From a virus, in IMG/VR virus record IMGVR_UViG_3300027852_000088, positions 1 to 40,015 of that record: a stretch of DNA of 40,015 nucleotides; one strand, 5' to 3'. The stretch's first letter is position 1. The number at the start of each line of letters is the position of its first letter. Positions 262 to 40,015 of this stretch are shown here, one piece after another. The translations under genes and the position numbers were made by a program. Under the pieces are notes generated by a model. The model was given only the letters and a program-made list of their open reading frames with translations, was not told the DNA's origin and did not search any database.

Positions 262-290
262 TTGACGTGTGCGCGCATTGCACATATTCT
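262..290 (+). promoter_or_regulatory. Sigma70-like promoter for the left island operon
   Basis: TTGACG (262-267) and TATTCT (285-290) are separated by exactly 17 bp. The spacer is itself an inverted repeat, TGTGC...GCACA, which could be an operator. A related GC-rich palindrome, TTGCGCGCAA, lies at 91-100. The first well-supported gene begins at 350. Confidence 0.55.
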
Positions 291-349: not shown

Positions 350-496
350 ATGTCAGATTCAAAACGCGCCACAATCAAAGCCACCCTTTCGCAAGGCCTA
401 GTATCGGCTAACAAGGGGAACCCCTTTTGGTCAAAGGCGGACGCAATGAAGGCCTTTAACCTGTTTCACAATAACGCTACTAACAAAGGGGAATAG
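350..496 (+). CDS. Small basic protein of unknown function (48 aa)
   Basis: ATG at 350 follows an AAGGAG site at 8-10 nt spacing, and the frame ends at TAG 494-496. The product is small and lysine-rich, starts MSDSKRATIK and has a central NPFWSKADAMKAF segment. I do not recognise the family. It is the first gene of the rightward island and ends 5 nt before the next start. The good ribosome-binding site and the conserved upstream hairpin are the main support. A longer overlapping frame (84-401) lacks a ribosome-binding site and is not preferred. Confidence 0.6.
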   Translation: MSDSKRATIKATLSQGLVSANKGNPFWSKADAMKAFNLFHNNATNKGE

Positions 497-501
497 ATCT
501 A

Positions 502-906
502 ATGGAGATTGATATAACTACATTCTTTAATAGCATGTGCCCCTCTGATTTGTCCGCCAGTATTGCGGAAATAGGAAGCAATGCGGGCCCGGATACCTGG
601 CAAGCGGCCAAAGATAAAACAGAGCAATATCTATTGCTTGATACCGACGAAAAGCGCACAGCTGCTATAGCCTACTTTTCAGAATTCGGCGCCTGGCATG
701 ATTTGGAAGAATGGCCTACCAGTGAATTAAACGCGCTTCTATTGCAAGACATTGCAGGGACTATGCGCGAGCTCTTGCCAAACTTTGGCGATAGTGCAAG
801 CGCTTGGGACTGGGAGGAATATGAAAACCAGTGCCAAGCCGGCCAAGTATCTGGCGGGCTATTCCCTGGCGACAAAGGGCAAGTATATTTTTACCTCGGA
901 CACTAA
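502..906 (+). CDS. Hypothetical acidic protein (134 aa)
   Basis: ATG at 502 follows closely on the 48-aa gene, with a GGGGAA site upstream. The protein is acidic, soluble-looking and tryptophan-rich. It has the stretch FSEFGAWHDLEEW at about residues 55-67 and a C-terminus with GGLFPGDKGQVYFYLGH. No signal peptide or membrane segment is visible. It recalls small proteins carried on plasmids and phages, but I cannot assign a family. It probably shares a transcript with the genes on both sides. Confidence 0.7.
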   Translation: MEIDITTFFNSMCPSDLSASIAEIGSNAGPDTWQAAKDKTEQYLLLDTDEKRTAAIAYFSEFGAWHDLEEWPTSELNALLLQDIAGTMRELLPNFGDSASAWDWEEYENQCQAGQVSGGLFPGDKGQVYFYLGH

Positions 907-912
907 CCGCGA

Positions 913-928
913 CTAGGCGCACCCCTAG
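913..928 (+). promoter_or_regulatory. CTAGG hairpin leader, copy 2
   Basis: CTAGG (913-917), a 6-nt loop and CCTAG (924-928) are almost identical to copy 1 at 315-330, including the preceding CGCGA. The element sits directly before the AGGAG ribosome-binding site of the gene at 945. Confidence 0.5.
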
Positions 929-944
929 ACAGGAGACCAACACC

Positions 945-1745
945 ATGAAAACTACATTGACTAGCTATTATTTCGACATATCAAAGCCAGCGCAATTGCT
1001 GGACTATGAAAAACTTTGTCTCCGCATGCGGACAAGTAATATAGATTGCTTTGAATCACATGGGCAGGGATCACACTACCTGGCATGGGCCAAAGGCGGA
1101 ATAGAGATAGAAATTGATACCGGGCACATATTCGGCAATCAATGGAATACCGCGCCTATACCTGGCCATTCTGAAAAAGGGCATAGGGTATTTGATTTCG
1201 CACTAGATGCATGCCTGCCAAACAAAAACATAAAGCGCGGGCACTATCTCGAGATCACCGACGACATGCGCGAGATACGGCGCAACACATTGACTTGTGG
1301 GTATTGTGGCCACCAGGAACCCGCGCAAAAGGGTAATGTATTTTGTGACAAATGTTGCGGTAGTGAATATTTAGAGTCGGACAATTACAAGCTATTGCGC
1401 CTATTGCCCGCGGAATCTACTTTTAATGGCGATCGGACGGAATTGTCCGAGGCGGAAAAGGCGCACATTCTGCCATTGATAGAAGCGGCCGCAAAAGAGG
1501 CGCGGGATAAACGCGCGGTAAAGTTGCGTCAATCTATAATCGACGGCCATCACAAAACAGTGCAAAACAGCGCAATTGAGCGAGACGGGCAATTGTGGCT
1601 AATCGACCACGGGCAAAGTATTGATAATTGGATTTATTACAAGCATACCGGCCGTTGGTGTTTTGGGTGGCGTGATCCCGTGCGAGAGGTCCCGGCGATA
1701 GTATGCGAATTCCCCTTTCCCTTTGATATCAAGCGCGCGAGCTAA
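945..1745 (+). CDS. Zinc-ribbon protein of unknown function (266 aa)
   Basis: The start is ATG 945 because AGGAG (931-935) lies 9 nt upstream; an upstream extension to 831 would overlap the previous gene and lacks a site. The N-terminus begins MKTTLTSYYFDISKP. A four-cysteine zinc ribbon lies near residues 121-140, with one CxxC pair in CGYCGH and a second in CDKCC. A basic helix with many K/R residues follows at about 180-205. The C-terminus has two aromatic-rich strands (NWIYYKHTGRWCFGW). The zinc ribbon suggests nucleic-acid or protein binding, but no enzyme motif is visible and no function is assigned. Confidence 0.75.
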   Translation: MKTTLTSYYFDISKPAQLLDYEKLCLRMRTSNIDCFESHGQGSHYLAWAKGGIEIEIDTGHIFGNQWNTAPIPGHSEKGHRVFDFALDACLPNKNIKRGHYLEITDDMREIRRNTLTCGYCGHQEPAQKGNVFCDKCCGSEYLESDNYKLLRLLPAESTFNGDRTELSEAEKAHILPLIEAAAKEARDKRAVKLRQSIIDGHHKTVQNSAIERDGQLWLIDHGQSIDNWIYYKHTGRWCFGWRDPVREVPAIVCEFPFPFDIKRAS

Positions 1746-1759
1746 TAGGAGCAATTGCA

Positions 1760-1954
1760 ATGCAAACATACAAAACAGACGGGCAGTATGATGTCACTTT
1801 GCAATGGATGCCTGGCAAGCATGGGGATTTTTACCGCGTGAAATATGGGGAAGATATCCGCGACACAATCAATTATTCGGACGCGTGCGAATATATAGGC
1901 CAAGCTCTAATGCACGCGTCCGCGTGCGCTGGCGAGTTTAACGAATACGGATAA
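1760..1954 (+). CDS. Hypothetical protein (64 aa)
   Basis: ATG at 1760 has TAGGAG 13 to 8 nt upstream. The protein is small, soluble-looking and slightly acidic, starting MQTYKTDGQYDVTLQW. It is the last gene before the hairpin at 1971-1995, so it probably closes the first sub-operon of the island. I recognise no family. Confidence 0.65.
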   Translation: MQTYKTDGQYDVTLQWMPGKHGDFYRVKYGEDIRDTINYSDACEYIGQALMHASACAGEFNEYG

Positions 1955-1970
1955 TTAGCAGTCCCACACT

Positions 1971-1995
1971 ATAGCCCGTTTTTATAGCGGGCTAT
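1971..1995 (+). terminator. Hairpin, possible terminator
   Basis: ATAGCCCG (1971-1978) pairs perfectly with CGGGCTAT (1988-1995) across a 9-nt T-rich loop. The hairpin lies 16 nt after the stop of the 64-aa gene. The following sequence is only mildly T-rich (GTTGTGT), so it is a weak intrinsic terminator at best and could instead protect the RNA end. No gene is seen from 1955 to 2076. Confidence 0.45.
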
Positions 1996-2076
1996 GTTGT
2001 GTCGTCTGGCACTAGCGGCCGCGCGCTACAGCGGAAATAGATCTGCCCGGAGATGCCCGGGAATGTGAGGTATTAA

Positions 2077-2799
2077 ATGAATATAGGCTATGTGCTATAT
2101 ACGGGCCCGTCATTGATTGACGGAAAACCAATAGCAGTTATTGCCACAATGGCAAGCAACAATGAAAAAACCGGTCTACCAGGTAAACGTAATATGATTC
2201 AAACGTGGATTATACGCACGGACATTGAGCCACACACCGCGCAAAAAACAGGCGCTGATTTTTCAGTGTGCGGGGATTGTATGCATAGGCCAAAAAATGG
2301 CAATACGTGCTATGTAACGACGTTTCAGGCGCCTTTATCAGTTTATCGCGCCTATCATAGGGGCAGCTATTCAAACGACGTTAAACAGTTTTATAGCGAC
2401 ATTAAAAACAGGCGCGTCCGGTTTGGCGCCTATGGGGATCCCGCGGCCGCGCCTGCTAGCCTGTGGCAAACAATAGCGGACAATTGCGCCGGGCATTCTG
2501 GGTATACGCACCAATGGAATAGGCCAGATTTTGATAGGGCACTGCTTAACGTTGTTATGGCTTCCGTGGATAGTCCAGAAGAGGCGGAATTATCCGATTC
2601 TAGATATTTCCGCGTCAAAACGGCAGAATCTACCGCCCTACCTGGCGAAATAGAGTGCCTGTCGGATTCTCGCGGTATGCTGTGCGCGGATTGCCTTTTG
2701 TGTGATGGCGCCGGACGTGGAAAGGGGAAGTCTGTATATATTAACGTGCACGGATCCAAGGCAAACAATTTTAGCGCGGGCATTATCGCCAGCGCATAG
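2077..2799 (+). CDS. Cysteine-motif protein of unknown function (240 aa)
   Basis: ATG at 2077 has TGAGG 10 nt upstream. The protein has a CGDC-x10-C cluster at about residues 67-82 (CGDCMHRPKNGNTCYV), then basic and aromatic segments. A second cluster, CADCLLCDG, lies near residues 207-215. The paired clusters look like metal- or iron-sulfur-binding sites. Proteins with a CGDC...CYV signature and no known role occur in phages and plasmids. It sits upstream of the RHH-like and HTH genes. Enzymatic activity cannot be inferred. Confidence 0.75.
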   Translation: MNIGYVLYTGPSLIDGKPIAVIATMASNNEKTGLPGKRNMIQTWIIRTDIEPHTAQKTGADFSVCGDCMHRPKNGNTCYVTTFQAPLSVYRAYHRGSYSNDVKQFYSDIKNRRVRFGAYGDPAAAPASLWQTIADNCAGHSGYTHQWNRPDFDRALLNVVMASVDSPEEAELSDSRYFRVKTAESTALPGEIECLSDSRGMLCADCLLCDGAGRGKGKSVYINVHGSKANNFSAGIIASA

Positions 2800-2807
2800 G
2801 GTTATTT

Positions 2808-2984
2808 ATGGTAGACAAACAAAACGATACAAAGCCTGGCAAAAAGCCGGGCTCTTTCTTGCACATCGATTGCACGCGCGAGGACAAAACAACGTGGGTG
2901 AATGCCGCGCGCGGGCAAAAGCTTGCCGCGTGGGTAATCGATGCGCTAAATGATGCCGCCAAAAAACAGGGGGATAGCGATTGA
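2808..2984 (+). CDS. Ribbon-helix-helix-like small protein (58 aa)
   Basis: ATG at 2808 lies 8 nt after the previous stop and the frame ends at TGA 2982-2984. After a Lys/Pro-rich N-terminus, the segment SFLHIDCTREDKTTW is followed by NAARGQKLAAWVIDALNDA. This fits the beta-strand, helix, helix pattern of plasmid MobC/CopG-type ribbon-helix-helix proteins. Such proteins bind repeated DNA sites as dimers, and the 23-bp array begins 319 bp downstream. Its stop overlaps the TTG start of the HTH gene (TTGA). The fold is inferred from pattern only. Confidence 0.6.
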   Translation: MVDKQNDTKPGKKPGSFLHIDCTREDKTTWVNAARGQKLAAWVIDALNDAAKKQGDSD

Positions 2985-3190
2985 CCAAGACAAAATCTCC
3001 TAGCCCGCGCTCAATTGTTGCACTACGCAAGCGCATACAAAAGAAAACGGGCGCGGGAATAACGGCCGGGCAGGATACTTGCGCCGACCTTTTGCACACT
3101 AGCAGACGGACCTGGCAACAATGGGAAACAGGCGCGCGCAAAATGCATCCCGCGTTCTGGGAATTGGTACGCCTAAAAGAAAGTGATTAA
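2981..3190 (+). CDS. Small helix-turn-helix regulator (69 aa)
   Basis: The gene starts with TTG overlapping the previous TGA. After a basic N-terminus it carries an XRE-like HTH, with helix 2 in QDTCADLLHTS and the recognition helix in RRTWQQWETGARKMH. The WQQWE-GxRxMHPAFWEL signature is common in small regulators on proteobacterial mobile elements. It is the last gene of the island and lies just before the 23-bp array, so it may regulate the island or bind the array. No inducer-binding domain is present. Confidence 0.7.
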   Translation: MTKTKSPSPRSIVALRKRIQKKTGAGITAGQDTCADLLHTSRRTWQQWETGARKMHPAFWELVRLKESD

Positions 3191-3223
3191 TTGAAACTAT
3201 TGGATAATGCGAGGTAGTAGCCT

Positions 3224-3268
3224 ATGGCAATCTATAAATTAAATCTATGGTTATGGCCAGCACGATAG
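3224..3268 (+). CDS. Possible tiny ORF (14 aa)
   Basis: ATG at 3224 with GAGG at 3211-3214 opens a 14-codon frame, MAIYKLNLWLWPAR, before the array. It may be a leader peptide or chance. The stretch 3191-3485 holds nothing else except the array. Confidence 0.2.
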   Translation: MAIYKLNLWLWPAR

Positions 3269-3302
3269 CGGCCGCCTATGGGGTGCGTTCCAGGGTAGGG
3301 TA

Positions 3303-3486
3303 CTGGAAAAAACCGGAACACCCCACTGGAAAAAACCGGCAGCCCCTACTGGAAAAAACCGGCACGGGGGTGTAGAAAAAACCTGCAGTGCCCACTGGAA
3401 AAAACCGGCAACACCCCATAGAAAAAACCCGGCCGGGGTAGTGGAAAAAACCCAGACCAGGTACCGGAAAAAACCTGCAGTAGCTC
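3303..3486. repeat. Eight-unit array with exact 23-bp period (iteron-like)
   Basis: Units start at 3303, 3326, 3349, 3372, 3395, 3418, 3441 and 3464. Each has a 14-bp conserved part (best form CTGGAAAAAACCGG) and a 9-bp variable, C/G-rich part. The invariant core is GAAAAAACC, a six-A tract flanked by near-symmetric GG and CC. Because 23 is not a multiple of 3, the repeat is not a protein repeat. The last unit ends on the stop codon of the leftward gene at 3486. Candidate roles are replication origin, partition site or operator array. Confidence 0.9.
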
Positions 3487-3872
3487 TAGGCTTGGGCCGC
3501 GGCTCCGGTCTTTGGAGCATCGTCATCACCGGCTGGTTCTTCTGTCTGCTTGGGTTCTGGTTCCTTCTCCACCACCACTTCAGCATTGCGTATTTCCTTC
3601 ATGCGCACCCACTCGCCGCCGACCAACACCTTGTTGCGCTGGTTGTCGTCGTGCAGCAGGTAAATCATGCCGCCATGGGGATCTGGTGTCAGCTCGATGG
3701 GGCCGATAGGCGTGATGGGTGTGGGGCGCAGCGAGTCCGTTGATGCCCAGCCGATGATGGGGAGCATGGAGTATTTCTCCGGTTCATCGACAGGCAGCAC
3801 AGCAACTCGCAGTGCTGGGTTATGGTTTGCGATCATAGTGAACGCGACTTCGATAGATTTCTTGGTAGCCAT
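3486..3872 (-). CDS. Hypothetical protein with acidic disordered tail (128 aa)
   Basis: This is the last gene of the leftward early operon. The N-terminal ~95 residues look globular (MATKKSIEVAFTMIANHN; later GGMIYLLHDDNQRNKVLVGGEW). The remaining ~35 residues are rich in E, P, D and A and probably disordered. Its stop codon is the final base triplet of the 23-bp array boundary. I do not recognise the family; the operon context suggests an early, DNA-metabolism-associated role. Confidence 0.7.
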   Translation of the reverse strand: MATKKSIEVAFTMIANHNPALRVAVLPVDEPEKYSMLPIIGWASTDSLRPTPITPIGPIELTPDPHGGMIYLLHDDNQRNKVLVGGEWVRMKEIRNAEVVVEKEPEPKQTEEPAGDDDAPKTGAAAQA

Positions 3873-4865: not shown

Positions 4866-5050
4866 TTTCTGCTCCCAAGCTTGAGACCCTTGAAGATCGG
4901 GTCCTCGGGTGGCTTCTTGCGCTTTGGATGGTAGGCGCCCAGGGTCCACTCAGCAGTCAGCGAGCACATAGGCCTGGGGTTCTTGCTCCAGGGCACGATG
5001 GTCCATGGGTGCAACCGGCGGATCTCCTCGCGCTGCTCTGTGGTAATCAT
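4862..5050 (-). CDS. Hypothetical protein (62 aa)
   Basis: The start at 5050 is chosen for the TGATG overlap with the upstream stop; the product begins MITTEQREEIRRLHPW. It is basic, with a C-terminal KRKKPPEDPIFKGLKLGSRK tail. It ends by ATGA overlap with rusA, so translation is probably coupled. No family is recognised; small basic proteins beside rusA are common in phage replication operons. Confidence 0.6.
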   Translation of the reverse strand: MITTEQREEIRRLHPWTIVPWSKNPRPMCSLTAEWTLGAYHPKRKKPPEDPIFKGLKLGSRK

Positions 5051-5235
5051 CACAGGTTCCCGAAGGTGTTGGGACCAGGATTGATCACCTGGGGAATCCC
5101 CTTCTCGTTGCACTTGAAGCGCTCCTCGGCGGCCTTGCTCAGGTTTGAGGGTATCGCTTTGATCTCACCCCCGCTGGCCAGAAACTTCTCAGTGAGCTGA
5201 TCAATCTCAGCGCGGTCGATGTCGCATTGCTTCAT
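5050..5235 (-). CDS. Hypothetical protein (61 aa)
   Basis: The start at 5235 has AGGAG 9-13 nt upstream and overlaps the previous stop (ATGA). The product starts MKQCDIDRAEIDQLTEKFLASGGEI. The predicted helical N-terminus followed by AIPSNLSKAAEERF suggests a small DNA-binding or adaptor protein, but I assign no family. It is translationally coupled on both sides. Confidence 0.65.
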   Translation of the reverse strand: MKQCDIDRAEIDQLTEKFLASGGEIKAIPSNLSKAAEERFKCNEKGIPQVINPGPNTFGNL

Positions 5236-5474
5236 TTGAATATCTCCTCTTGAGGGTTCTTGTAGAAACACTCGGCGCACTCACCGATCCACTTGAAGAA
5301 TCGGTAGTCAGGGTTGAGCGCACGGCCACCCTTGGGTCCGGTGGTAGAAAACTCGCAGAACGGGCCAATCTTGAATTTGCCTGAGCTCAAGTGCTGGACC
5401 TTTACCAGCAGCAGGGTCACTGGTGCGCCGCAGTTGCATTGGGTAGGTTTCAGTGGCAGGTCGGTGGTTGTCAT
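5232..5474 (-). CDS. Small cysteine-rich, probably zinc-binding protein (80 aa)
   Basis: The sequence begins MTTTDLPLKPTQCNCGAPV and has a CxC pair at residues 13-15, GPFCEF near 37-42 and CAEC near 66-69. Four or five cysteines suggest one zinc site. It lies between the replication initiator and the coupled small genes, with an overlap of 4 nt on each side. Function unknown; a role in replication is inferred only from the operon. Confidence 0.65.
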   Translation of the reverse strand: MTTTDLPLKPTQCNCGAPVTLLLVKVQHLSSGKFKIGPFCEFSTTGPKGGRALNPDYRFFKWIGECAECFYKNPQEEIFK

Positions 5475-6349
5475 CCGGTGCCAGCCCAGGAGGTGTCGGT
5501 GAGATCTTCTTCGATGGACCTATCTCGTGTTTTATTCCCTGGTTGTTGCACAGGGCGCGTGGATAGAGATCCGCCAGATCCACCTCTGTCCTGCTGCCTG
5601 GACATCCAGCTTCCCAGGAACTTGCGCATGCCCTTGATAGTTTTCCGTTTGGTGGGGTTGTCCTGTAGCCACGACCTGGCTTTGAGCAGTTCCTGCCCGA
5701 TGTCTACCGCTGGATAGGCGGCTTTCCAGTCGGGGATCATGTCCAGAGTGACACTGAAGGTCTCTCCGCTGGTGTTGTACTTGTTGGTCGGTAGGACCAT
5801 GACTGTGGCCGGTTTTTCTTTCTCGTCACCGGGCTCCGAACTAGTGGTTTTATCACTGTCCCTATTACTGTTACTGTTACTGTTACTGTTTGGGGGAGGG
5901 TTACCCCTAACGTTTACCGTAACGTTTAGTGGAACGTTTGCCATAACCTTTGCGAAACCATCGCCTAAACCTTTCAAGTCCTCGTGTAGCCTAGCTTTCA
6001 TCGATGTGTCTGGTATGTAGTCCCAGGCCTTGAGCAAGCCTTTCAGCACGTTGGGATTGGCCGGCTTGTTGTGCTTGAGAAACTTCGGAAAGTAGACAAC
6101 TTGGAACGTTTCGTCGTACTCGAAAAGACCTTTGGCTAAACCCTCCCCGAAACCTTTGCGGTAACGTTTCAAGTCCCATCGTTTGTTGGCTGCAAGACCC
6201 TCAATGGAGGTGTGATACATGCCCAGTCCATTGGTCATTGGATTGGTGAAAAGGTGGAACCAGACCAGCTGACCATCATCGGACAGAGTGAAGAATTTCG
6301 GGTCGCTCCAGATGGTGACTTTCACACCTCTATGGATTACATCACCCAT
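5471..6349 (-). CDS. Phage replication initiator-like protein (292 aa)
   Basis: The N-terminal ~110 residues (VTIWSDPKFFTLSDDGQLVWFHLFTNP, split here as two motifs: SDPKFFTLSDDGQ and LVWFHLFTNP) match winged-helix initiator or replisome-organiser proteins of phages. A low-complexity linker of alternating Asn-Ser lies near residues 152-160. The C-terminal part (PDWKAAYPAVDI, then NPTKRKTIKGMRKFL, then SRQQDRGG) matches the conserved tail of many phage replication proteins that contact a helicase loader or helicase. The gene contains a phased 12-bp repeat set, as lambda O contains its origin. Its ATG overlaps the regulator stop (TGATG). Confidence 0.75.
   Translation of the reverse strand: MGDVIHRGVKVTIWSDPKFFTLSDDGQLVWFHLFTNPMTNGLGMYHTSIEGLAANKRWDLKRYRKGFGEGLAKGLFEYDETFQVVYFPKFLKHNKPANPNVLKGLLKAWDYIPDTSMKARLHEDLKGLGDGFAKVMANVPLNVTVNVRGNPPPNSNSNSNSNRDSDKTTSSEPGDEKEKPATVMVLPTNKYNTSGETFSVTLDMIPDWKAAYPAVDIGQELLKARSWLQDNPTKRKTIKGMRKFLGSWMSRQQDRGGSGGSLSTRPVQQPGNKTRDRSIEEDLTDTSWAGTG
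5865..6169. other. Candidate replication origin inside the initiator gene
   Basis: A 7-mer of form AAC[G/C]TTT recurs at 12-bp phase at 5909, 5921, 5933 and 5945. A further copy lies at 5968, and a second phased run lies at 6127, 6139 (degenerate), 6151 and 6163, with another at 6105. Next to the first run are four tandem TTACTG hexamers (5865-5888). The arrangement resembles iterons plus an unwinding region in lambda-type origins. The repeats also encode periodic residues, so part of the signal could be protein-driven. Confidence 0.5.
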
Positions 6350-6582
6350 CAGCCGGCAGCCAGCTGTCGCGGGTAGATATCCTCCAGCGAGATTCGCTCA
6401 CCCAGGCCATCGGCATAATCGATAAATCGATACGCGATGTCCGTGGGGATATCCCTTCGTCCTGACTCGTAGTGTGAAATGCGCGACTGGGCCTTGGCTT
6501 GTTCAATGCCAAGTGCAACCCCGAACTGACCTTGGGTAAGGCCATGTCGCTCCCTGAATTCTCTAAATTTAGTAGTGTCCAT
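6349..6582 (-). CDS. XRE-family HTH regulator, Cro/CI-like (77 aa)
   Basis: The start is ATG 6582 (MDTTKFREFRERHGLTQ). The HTH runs LTQGQFGVALGIEQAKAQS then RISHYESGRRDIP, followed by a short dimerisation-type tail. There is no S24 peptidase domain, so it is Cro-like in size. It sits at the head of the replication operon and overlaps the initiator start by TGATG. The -10 box of its promoter ends 7 nt before the ATG and no ribosome-binding site is visible, so the mRNA is probably leaderless. The four operators around 6595-6760 are its likely targets. Confidence 0.85.
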   Translation of the reverse strand: MDTTKFREFRERHGLTQGQFGVALGIEQAKAQSRISHYESGRRDIPTDIAYRFIDYADGLGERISLEDIYPRQLAAG

Positions 6583-6588
6583 GCGGTG

Positions 6589-6618
6589 AGTATAAATACA
6601 CTGCGTATTCCATGTCAA
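6589..6618 (-). promoter_or_regulatory. Leftward early promoter
   Basis: On the - strand TTGACA (6618-6613) and TATACT (6594-6589) are separated by 18 bp. The expected start point is at or next to the A of the regulator ATG (6582). One operator fills the spacer and a second overlaps the -35, so bound regulator should block the promoter. Confidence 0.7.
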
Positions 6619-6631
6619 TACATAGCGCATT
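6595..6631. promoter_or_regulatory. Left operator pair
   Basis: Site 1 (6595-6609) is AATACACTGCGTATT; site 2 (6617-6631) is a weaker match, AATACATAGCGCATT. Starts are 22 bp apart, about two helical turns. Both match the palindrome AATACRC-N-GYGTATT seen twice on the right side. Confidence 0.75.
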
Positions 6632-6721
6632 CCAGTGCAGTGATAACCTTAGTCCCAGTCTTGTAATCCCGCCACAATTCCACACAGCACGTGTAGTCAT
6701 TTCACTCATACCGCAAATTTT

Positions 6722-6760
6722 AATACGCTGCGTATTGACTTATTAAATACGCCGTGTATT
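6722..6760. promoter_or_regulatory. Right operator pair
   Basis: AATACGCTGCGTATT (6722-6736) and AATACGCCGTGTATT (6746-6760) are near-perfect 15-bp palindromes, 24 bp apart. The first overlaps the -35 and the second the -10 of the rightward promoter. They are the probable binding sites of the HTH regulator at 6349-6582. The 6637-6720 stretch between the pairs shows no further clear site. Confidence 0.8.
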
Positions 6761-10227: not shown

Positions 10228-10501
10228 CCAAAATCGGCGGCACCCCACCTGTGTGTGTCCCCACGCAGCGCCGCCGGCAGGTTGGTCCACCTGTCCATGA
10301 AGAAGGCCCGACTTGCCGCCGTTAGCGGCTCCAGAATTCAGATGATCAGGGCCTACCCAGGTAGCCCGATGAGCCGGCCCGCCCCTCCGGTGATCAGGAA
10401 CGGGGCACTGAATTGAACCAGAAGCGATGCGCTGGCAGGCCGCTACGTGCTTAGAACCGGAAATAGTCTGCCACCCAACAACTACCAGAGGGCGCAAGCC
10501 A
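10228..10501 (+). other. 274-bp spacer with no clear gene
   Basis: A 33-codon frame begins at ATG 10224, overlapping the previous stop (ATGA), and ends at 10325; it is proline- and arginine-rich and not convincing. A GCCGC/GCGGC hairpin lies near 10316-10330 without a T-run. I see no promoter. The spacer may be decayed coding sequence. Confidence 0.35.
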
Positions 10502-11284
10502 ATGTTCGAAATACAAGAAACCAAAGCACTGATCCGTAGCATCAACCCCCGCGCCGAGAACCATGGCGACGAGCACGCACTGGCCTGTGATATAGGCCTG
10601 GAGTTTAAGCTGAGCAACAAGAAGCTGGCCCTGCTGAGCCCCGCCCTGCTGGGTGCTATGTACAAGCGCGACAACGAGCCGGAGGAGAACACCCAGGAGG
10701 CGCTGGAACTGGAGGCCGACATGCTGCCGCACCTCAGATTTCCCAGCCTGGGAATCCTATCCTGGAAGTACGAGGGCGCGGGTTACACCTTCCACCTGAT
10801 CCAGGACAAGCTCAACGGTGACGAGATCACAGAGCTGCCCGACTGCAAGATCAACAACTTCAAGATCGAGTGCGAGGAAGGCGGGACGATCAAGCTCCAG
10901 GTGCGCGTTCAGGGTAATCCCAGCGAGGAGACCATTGGCGAGCTGTGCCGTTTCATCCGGGAGGAGACCCTGGTATCGCTGCTGCCTCCTGAGAAGGGTG
11001 AGGACATGCAGGAAGACCTGGATGCTGAAACGGACCCAGATCCCGCCGCAGAACTACTGGAAGACGACGAGGAGCGCCCTGACGATGAGGCCATGTACAT
11101 CGTGGCTGTAGAGCACGTGCGCGACTCAGGCAACACTTCAATCAACAACCTGCAGAAGGCCATGGCCATCGGCTTCAACCGTGCTGCGCGCCTGATCGAG
11201 CGCATGGAGAATGACGGCATCATCACCAGCATGAGCGAGAACGGTGTGCGGGTGGTGGTTCAAGAGGAGGTGGTTGAGGCATGA
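10502..11284 (+). CDS. Recombination-operon protein with FtsK-gamma-like winged helix (260 aa)
   Basis: The start at 10502 is chosen for AGAGGG upstream. The N-terminal ~160 residues (MFEIQETKALIRSINPRAE, then DIGLEFKLSNKKLALLSP) form a domain seen beside phage recT genes but of unknown role. An acidic linker (about 165-195) follows. The last ~60 residues (DEAMYIVAVEHVRDSGNTS, then INNLQKAMAIGFNRAARLIE, then MENDGIITS) closely resemble the FtsK gamma winged helix that reads KOPS DNA. The fusion suggests sequence-specific DNA binding. It overlaps the next ATG by 4 nt. Confidence 0.75.
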   Translation: MFEIQETKALIRSINPRAENHGDEHALACDIGLEFKLSNKKLALLSPALLGAMYKRDNEPEENTQEALELEADMLPHLRFPSLGILSWKYEGAGYTFHLIQDKLNGDEITELPDCKINNFKIECEEGGTIKLQVRVQGNPSEETIGELCRFIREETLVSLLPPEKGEDMQEDLDAETDPDPAAELLEDDEERPDDEAMYIVAVEHVRDSGNTSINNLQKAMAIGFNRAARLIERMENDGIITSMSENGVRVVVQEEVVEA

Positions 11285-39951: not shown

Positions 39952-40015
39952 TTTTGTTAATCCTCATCAAGTCCTGAATATCTCGTTTTTTCCAAATAGC
40001 ACGCGAAGAAAAGAC
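39952..40015 (-). promoter_or_regulatory. Upstream region of terS at window edge
   Basis: The stretch holds the terS ribosome-binding site (TGAGGA) and one isolated GGAAAAAAC (- strand, 39993-39985), nine of the ten core bases of the 23-bp array. A single copy could be chance. If the molecule is circular, this joins the promoter region at 1-349 and forms a divergent control region. Confidence 0.35.

Follow-up and report, generated by a model that had tools for sequence, protein, structure and literature searches.

An exactly periodic array of eight 23-bp units in an HK97-type phage genome, a candidate initiator-binding, origin-like element

What is the function of eight short DNA repeats that follow each other at a constant distance between two convergent phage genes? 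This question is raised by a locus in a single virus record of 40,015 bp, which was analysed over its full length and is called the window here. GAAAAAACC occurs eight times in consecutive order on the plus strand between 3306 and 3475, the copies starting at 3306, 3329, 3352, 3375, 3398, 3421, 3444 and 3467, i.e., exactly 23 bp apart from start to start. Dinucleotide shuffles of the whole window contain this word 0.18 times on average and twice at most, versus the eight copies observed. Runs of any 9-mer at a constant period reach eight members in the array versus at most two elsewhere in the genome, and do not exceed two in 100 first-order shuffles. Self-identity is 0.64 at period 23, compared to 0.2-0.3 at most other periods and 0.40-0.41 at 22 and 24. 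Positions, shuffles and self-identity thus confirm the eight-unit array of exact 23-bp period that a first-pass annotation had described, and the extent given there, 3303-3486, is correct to within a few bases.

A column-by-column count finds nine core bases invariant in all eight units. In the flanking columns, T(-2), G(+10) and A(+12) are each present in seven of eight units, G(-1) in six, this column being G/A, and A(-4) in at least five. Each unit carries A6 between partly complementary arms, and the CTGG/CCGG arms are complete in units 1, 2, 3 and 5 (4 of 8). The motif had been called near-palindromic, which holds for these best units and not for the others; the site is about 17 bp long and directional, with partial symmetry only. 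The fillers, which had been described as variable, are G/C-rich and do differ in sequence, but they are non-random, most of them carrying a C or G run of 3-5 bp in either orientation. Tandem Repeats Finder assigns its top score to a period of 69 bp, i.e., three units, and this higher-order period suggests that the array grew via duplication of three-unit blocks. Phased A-tract curvature was ruled out as the purpose by reasoning only, since at 10.5 bp per turn a 23-bp period does not keep the tracts in phase and planar bending is thus not what the array is for. Rfam models gave zero matches in the window. The array is noncoding. The earlier view that it is a DNA-level signal, presumably of the protein-binding type, is supported.

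Table 1. Coordinates of the array and of the features discussed with it (positions in the window).
Feature	Position	Strand	Remarks
Promoter-like TTGACG-17-TATTCT (sigma-70-like) of the cargo operon	262..290	+	promoter scan and direct reading
C8/G8 tract near contig end	34..41		like G8-9 near the right cos ends of HK97 and AsXd-1
Rest of cargo operon: 48, 134, 266, 64, 240 aa proteins	350..2799	+	phrog_24784, phrog_26133, phrog_6500, phrog_2554
58-aa protein	2808..2984	+	gene overlaps HTH gene; weak similarity to AcrIF25 N-terminus
69-aa HTH, Aca10 homolog	2981..3190	+	last cargo gene; PDB 7XI5, E=1e-11
DnaA-box perfect consensus match TTTTGCACA	3090..3098	+	inside HTH gene; one of two in genome; consensus match only
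AT-rich patch, candidate unwinding element	3176..3250		among lowest-GC 75-bp windows of genome
Array, eight 23-bp units	3303..3486	+	core RGAAAAAACC; consensus ~ACTGGAAAAAACCGGCA plus C/G-run filler
128-aa orphan ORF (ORF128)	3486..3872	-	convergent with cargo operon
O-like/DnaD-like replication protein, candidate initiator	5471..6349	-	~2 kb from array
AAASGTT repeats and AACAGT run inside O-like gene	5865..6169	-	8 of the genome's 10 AAASGTT; AACAGT x4
GGAAAAAACG	39984..39993	-	sole other GGAAAAAAC in genome; ~23 bp from terS-side end

Judged by its gene content, the window is an HK97-type cos siphophage. The large terminase (TerL) is of HK97 type and 42% identical to that of HK022/HK97, and the small terminase (TerS, 161 aa) matches phrog_5601. 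Portal, capsid, protease and a lambda-J-type tail protein are encoded, as are RecE/RecT-like proteins, an O-like/DnaD-like replication protein, a RusA resolvase, an HNH nuclease with weak similarity to HK97 gp74 (26% over 73 aa, E=0.002) and a small HTH regulator. The distance between the contig end and the start of TerS is 64 bp, as against 49-50 bp in AsXd-1 and HK97. Near the other end lies a tract that resembles their G8-9. From this resemblance to the HK97 and AsXd-1 cos ends, the contig ends are probably cos ends and the contig the whole linear genome. Unlike HK97 and AsXd-1, the phage carries a cargo operon and the array between its HNH gene and cos; no such array was seen in the end stretches examined of these two phages. 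Neither a tyrosine integrase nor a serine recombinase was found in the genome. A ParA-type ATPase is absent from the annotated proteins, with no PF13614 match in the genome, and neither ParM nor TubZ was noticed among the annotated proteins. The support for the earlier idea of a phage-plasmid is therefore of a negative kind, consisting of the integrase, recombinase and ParA-type ATPase that were not found.

The placement between convergent genes was borne out: the HTH gene on the plus strand ends at 3190 and ORF128 on the minus strand at 3486. No gene start adjoins the array, and a promoter scan found no promoter-like site at it, which argues against a plain promoter operator. Within the 200 bp to the left, a 75-bp segment has 28% GC. 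An equally AT-rich flank on either side occurs at 0.64% of genome positions, a statistic that was picked after the sequence had been seen; counted on one side only and among positions of the AT-rich left region, the figure is 1.7%. The KOPS motif GGGTAGGG at 3293 was considered as a clue and is uninformative with five occurrences in the genome. Xer/dif integration was dismissed likewise, no dif-like site being found.

We tentatively favour the reading that the array is an initiator-binding, origin-like element, at somewhat less than an even chance. This preference is based on directional A-tract sites of about two helical turns, on the AT-rich adjoining segment and on the O-like initiator in the genome. 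Directly observed are the array, with nine invariant core bases at an exact period, the AT-rich patch next to it and the O-like gene; from these we infer protein binding, the identity of the binder and a start of replication at the array. The eight iteron-like sites would be bound by a sequence-specific protein of initiator type, cooperatively and with about two helical turns per site, and the resulting nucleoprotein complex would open the AT-rich patch and thus constitute a replication origin, either lytic or plasmid-like. The most economical binder would be the O-like protein of the phage itself. Direct repeats at a constant spacing near two helical turns (eight cores, 23 bp) are in good agreement with such a role. 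Plasmid origins usually have iterons with a period of 21-23 bp, and the array resembles iteron plasmid origins of the RK2, P1 and F type in its period, in its direct orientation and in the AT-rich DNA and DnaA-box match nearby. It differs from them in its core, and a Rep/RepA-type initiator was not found in the phage. The DnaA-box and IHF matches count as weak evidence, as does the consensus match to a promoter. With ori-lambda and its O-protein iterons, the array shares A-tract, partly symmetric units in a row, a nearby AT-rich segment and an O-like protein. Lambdoid iterons are intrinsically bent, contain an A3-A4 tract and adjoin an AT-rich region (PMC7466680).

The array differs from a lambdoid origin in its eight units, instead of four to six, and in its unrelated core sequence. 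Iterons of a lambdoid O-type origin lie within the O gene, whereas the array lies outside the O-like gene. Several facts speak against an origin. The O-like gene carries repeats of its own (AAASGTT, AACAGT); inside it, AAASGTT recurs at 12 bp and TTACTG occurs four times, so that this stretch is a rival origin candidate, probably of lambdoid type. This is the usual place of a lambdoid origin, and the lytic origin may thus be inside the O-like gene; the array could then serve as a second origin or as the origin of a plasmid state, or do something different. A G/C-rich gap of about 50 bp lies between the AT-rich patch and the first unit, and the AT-rich cargo region raises the odds of a low-GC patch nearby. 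Furthermore, a related array is absent from every collection searched, hence no conservation can be adduced. If the origin reading is true, this would be an O-type phage whose iterons lie outside the gene for the initiator, perhaps with two origins. It seems quite improbable that the array is a new extra-genic iteron array, located next to an anti-CRISPR-type cargo operon and acting as second origin or motor-free centromere in an integrase-less HK97-type phage that is kept as a plasmid.

The missing conservation has to be read with care. Neither blastn of the array against phage and plasmid records (no useful match) nor a pattern scan of IMG/VR (no related phage array) recovered a relative, and a scan of 85k GTDB-species genomes yielded unrelated arrays only. 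The search for the array in related phages and plasmids, as proposed at the outset, thus returned nothing, but IMG/VR likewise lacks close relatives of TerL, of ORF128 and of the O-like protein, and neither a relative of TerL nor an array was seen in 14 viral records with cargo homologs. As the searches found no phage closely related to this one, lack of conservation does not refute a function. In the viral contig L020, a 23-bp AAAAAACCC array forms one end, and a phrog_2554 homolog lies 1.2 kb away. A periodicity scan of 79 further phrog_2554 loci detected no such array, and a link between the array and this family, to which the 240-aa cargo protein belongs, was discarded as a coincidence seen in L020 alone. 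On its own, the L020 array appears origin-like: the contig terminus (1-66) lies inside a 23-bp AAAAAACCCTTAAG array that adjoins a very AT-rich stretch of 180 bp, and a terminase gene is located at the opposite end.

A different set of arrays came from bacteria. The search pattern, three copies of AAAAAACC at 23 bp, was built from the phage array and matched 20 bacterial loci. In 12 of these, spread over several phyla, the array precedes the start of a gene for an ATPase of 407-435 aa by approximately 70-200 bp, and a thirteenth locus (L022) has a similar ATPase gene on the array's other side. All three proteins checked against Pfam combine AAA_14 and DUF4143. These loci (L022-L025, L027, L028, L030, L031, L033-L037) comprise 3-5 units AAAAAACCAAARTGAAAT.. 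at 23 bp, and ATPase-linked arrays were found in Bacteroidetes, Firmicutes, Mollicutes, Spirochaetes and Acidimicrobiales. A limited literature search found no report on arrays upstream of AAA_14/DUF4143 ATPase genes. They possibly represent a conserved operator for this ATPase family. Because the search pattern itself dictated the core, the bacterial arrays are not evidence on the phage array.

Small RHH and HTH proteins encoded just upstream had been proposed as binders of the array. The 69-aa protein is indeed an HTH, namely an Aca10 homolog that keeps Q22, R34, Q37 and Q38 of Aca10, with R44 replaced by K, and it also resembles the VC1465/XafT family. For the 58-aa protein, no family match was obtained in Pfam, PHROGs or NCBIfam; its weak, RHH-looking match covers the first 43 residues of AcrIF25, and its sequence makes a putative RHH fold plausible. 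Single-sequence structure models of both proteins were too poor for use, that of the 58-aa protein being of low confidence. Aca10 binds a single 21-bp palindrome over the promoter of its own operon and thereby represses it (PMC9410881), and repression by Aca proteins via inverted repeats in promoters is general (PMC9410906). An inverted repeat, TGTGC-N7-GCACA, lies in the spacer between -35 and -10 of the cargo promoter and is a candidate site for autorepression by the HTH protein. This repeat at the operon's other end, together with the Aca10 homology, points to a natural target there, and none of 80 viral loci with relatives of the HTH protein has such an array. We therefore rejected the 69-aa protein as array binder; it probably does not use the array, and binding by the adjacent small proteins is unsupported.

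The cargo operon as a whole (350-3190, plus strand) looks foreign with 49% GC versus 55% and has a good sigma-70-like promoter match in front; the phage families that its proteins match have no assigned function. Like acr-aca operons with Aca10 (7XI5), it ends in an Aca10 homolog preceded by an overlapping small gene; unlike them, it holds acr genes as candidates only, and the sites published for Aca10 are palindromes in promoters instead of arrays. It is thus a candidate anti-CRISPR/anti-defence locus that includes the 58-aa protein. With an Aca10 homolog as its last gene and otherwise unknown products, the operon offers candidate genes for anti-defence. A leader CGCGACTAGGCGC.ACCCTAGA..AG was observed twice (86%), at 310-337 and 908-935, just before the start codons of two cargo genes; both copies contain a CTAGG...CCTAG hairpin and were read as a shared translation or RNA signal.

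Which other functions could explain the array? Origin and phage-plasmid centromere, both named in the first-pass annotation, still lead, although the centromere is unlikely. In the latter reading, a phage that persists as a plasmid would use the array for partition or stability, in the manner of a centromere, and one of its small DNA-binding proteins would bind there. A direct-repeat array with a small DNA-binding protein beside it is what is typically found at plasmid centromeres, and in RHH-bound centromeres of the parC, ParMRC type, as here, direct repeats lie near genes for such proteins. Binding of this kind by ParR is the subject of PMC9426499. The phage may be temperate, given its Cro-like regulator and operator-like repeats, yet integrase and resolvase were not found. 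On the other hand, no motor NTPase that such a site would call for was detected among the annotated proteins, the neighbouring HTH is an Aca10-type repressor whose relatives occur without arrays, and the RHH call for the 58-aa protein is putative. If true, a partition site without a recognisable motor would exist in an HK97-type phage; origin and centromere alike would offer a compact, easily cloned DNA element. The array could also be a transcription boundary, at which the minus-strand early transcript (6630 to 3486) terminates stepwise before it enters the cargo operon in antisense. This has to be considered unlikely, too. The convergent junction suits it, and the minus strand reads eight times as a G/C-rich stretch followed by T6 (U6 in RNA), folding slightly better than shuffles (z -1.85) in contrast to an ordinary plus strand (z +0.23); one unit was reported as a terminator-like site by the scan. 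But this is one unit of eight, the stems of 3-5 bp are inconsistently kept and do not provide a stable hairpin before each U run, and termination needs neither an exact 23-bp period nor an invariant 9-bp core.

An operator or silencing array for a host or phage regulator, e.g., the Aca10-like HTH or a nucleoid protein, is quite unlikely. The 4-6-4 half-site layout of the best units suits small HTH dimers, and in many bacteria comparable 23-bp AAAAAACC arrays are found a short way before AAA_14/DUF4143-type ATPase genes; yet the core common to these arrays stems from the search pattern, the Aca10 palindrome differs (PMC9410881), and A6 never varies, whereas a spacer without contacts would. The lack of a promoter-like site and of an adjoining gene start counts against an operator as well. 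We regard as very doubtful a packaging-related role, in which the repeats would be TerS sites copied from an A-tract element present at cos. The A6 of the GGAAAAAAC at the terS-side end occupies positions 25-30, compared to T6 in AsXd-1 and T7 in HK97 at 24-30, and G/C runs occur in the array fillers as well as at the other cos end. However, the tract of HK97 is on the opposite strand, the array is situated 3.3 kb from the nearer end and thus away from cos, and no such array is known from HK97. An initiator-binding, origin-like element remains our tentative choice, with a small share of the probability assigned to none of these readings.

Three further observations concern the early region. 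A 285-aa early protein (10427-11284) has a C-terminal FtsK gamma domain, of the KOPS-reading kind, without a motor domain. A 76-aa early protein (5050-5280) shows a SutA RNA-polymerase-binding domain (Pfam E 2.5e-9) and is possibly a phage modulator of RNA polymerase. Between the divergent early operons (6580-6760), near-palindromes AATACRC.GYGTATT are repeated, which are probable operators of the 93-aa HTH regulator.
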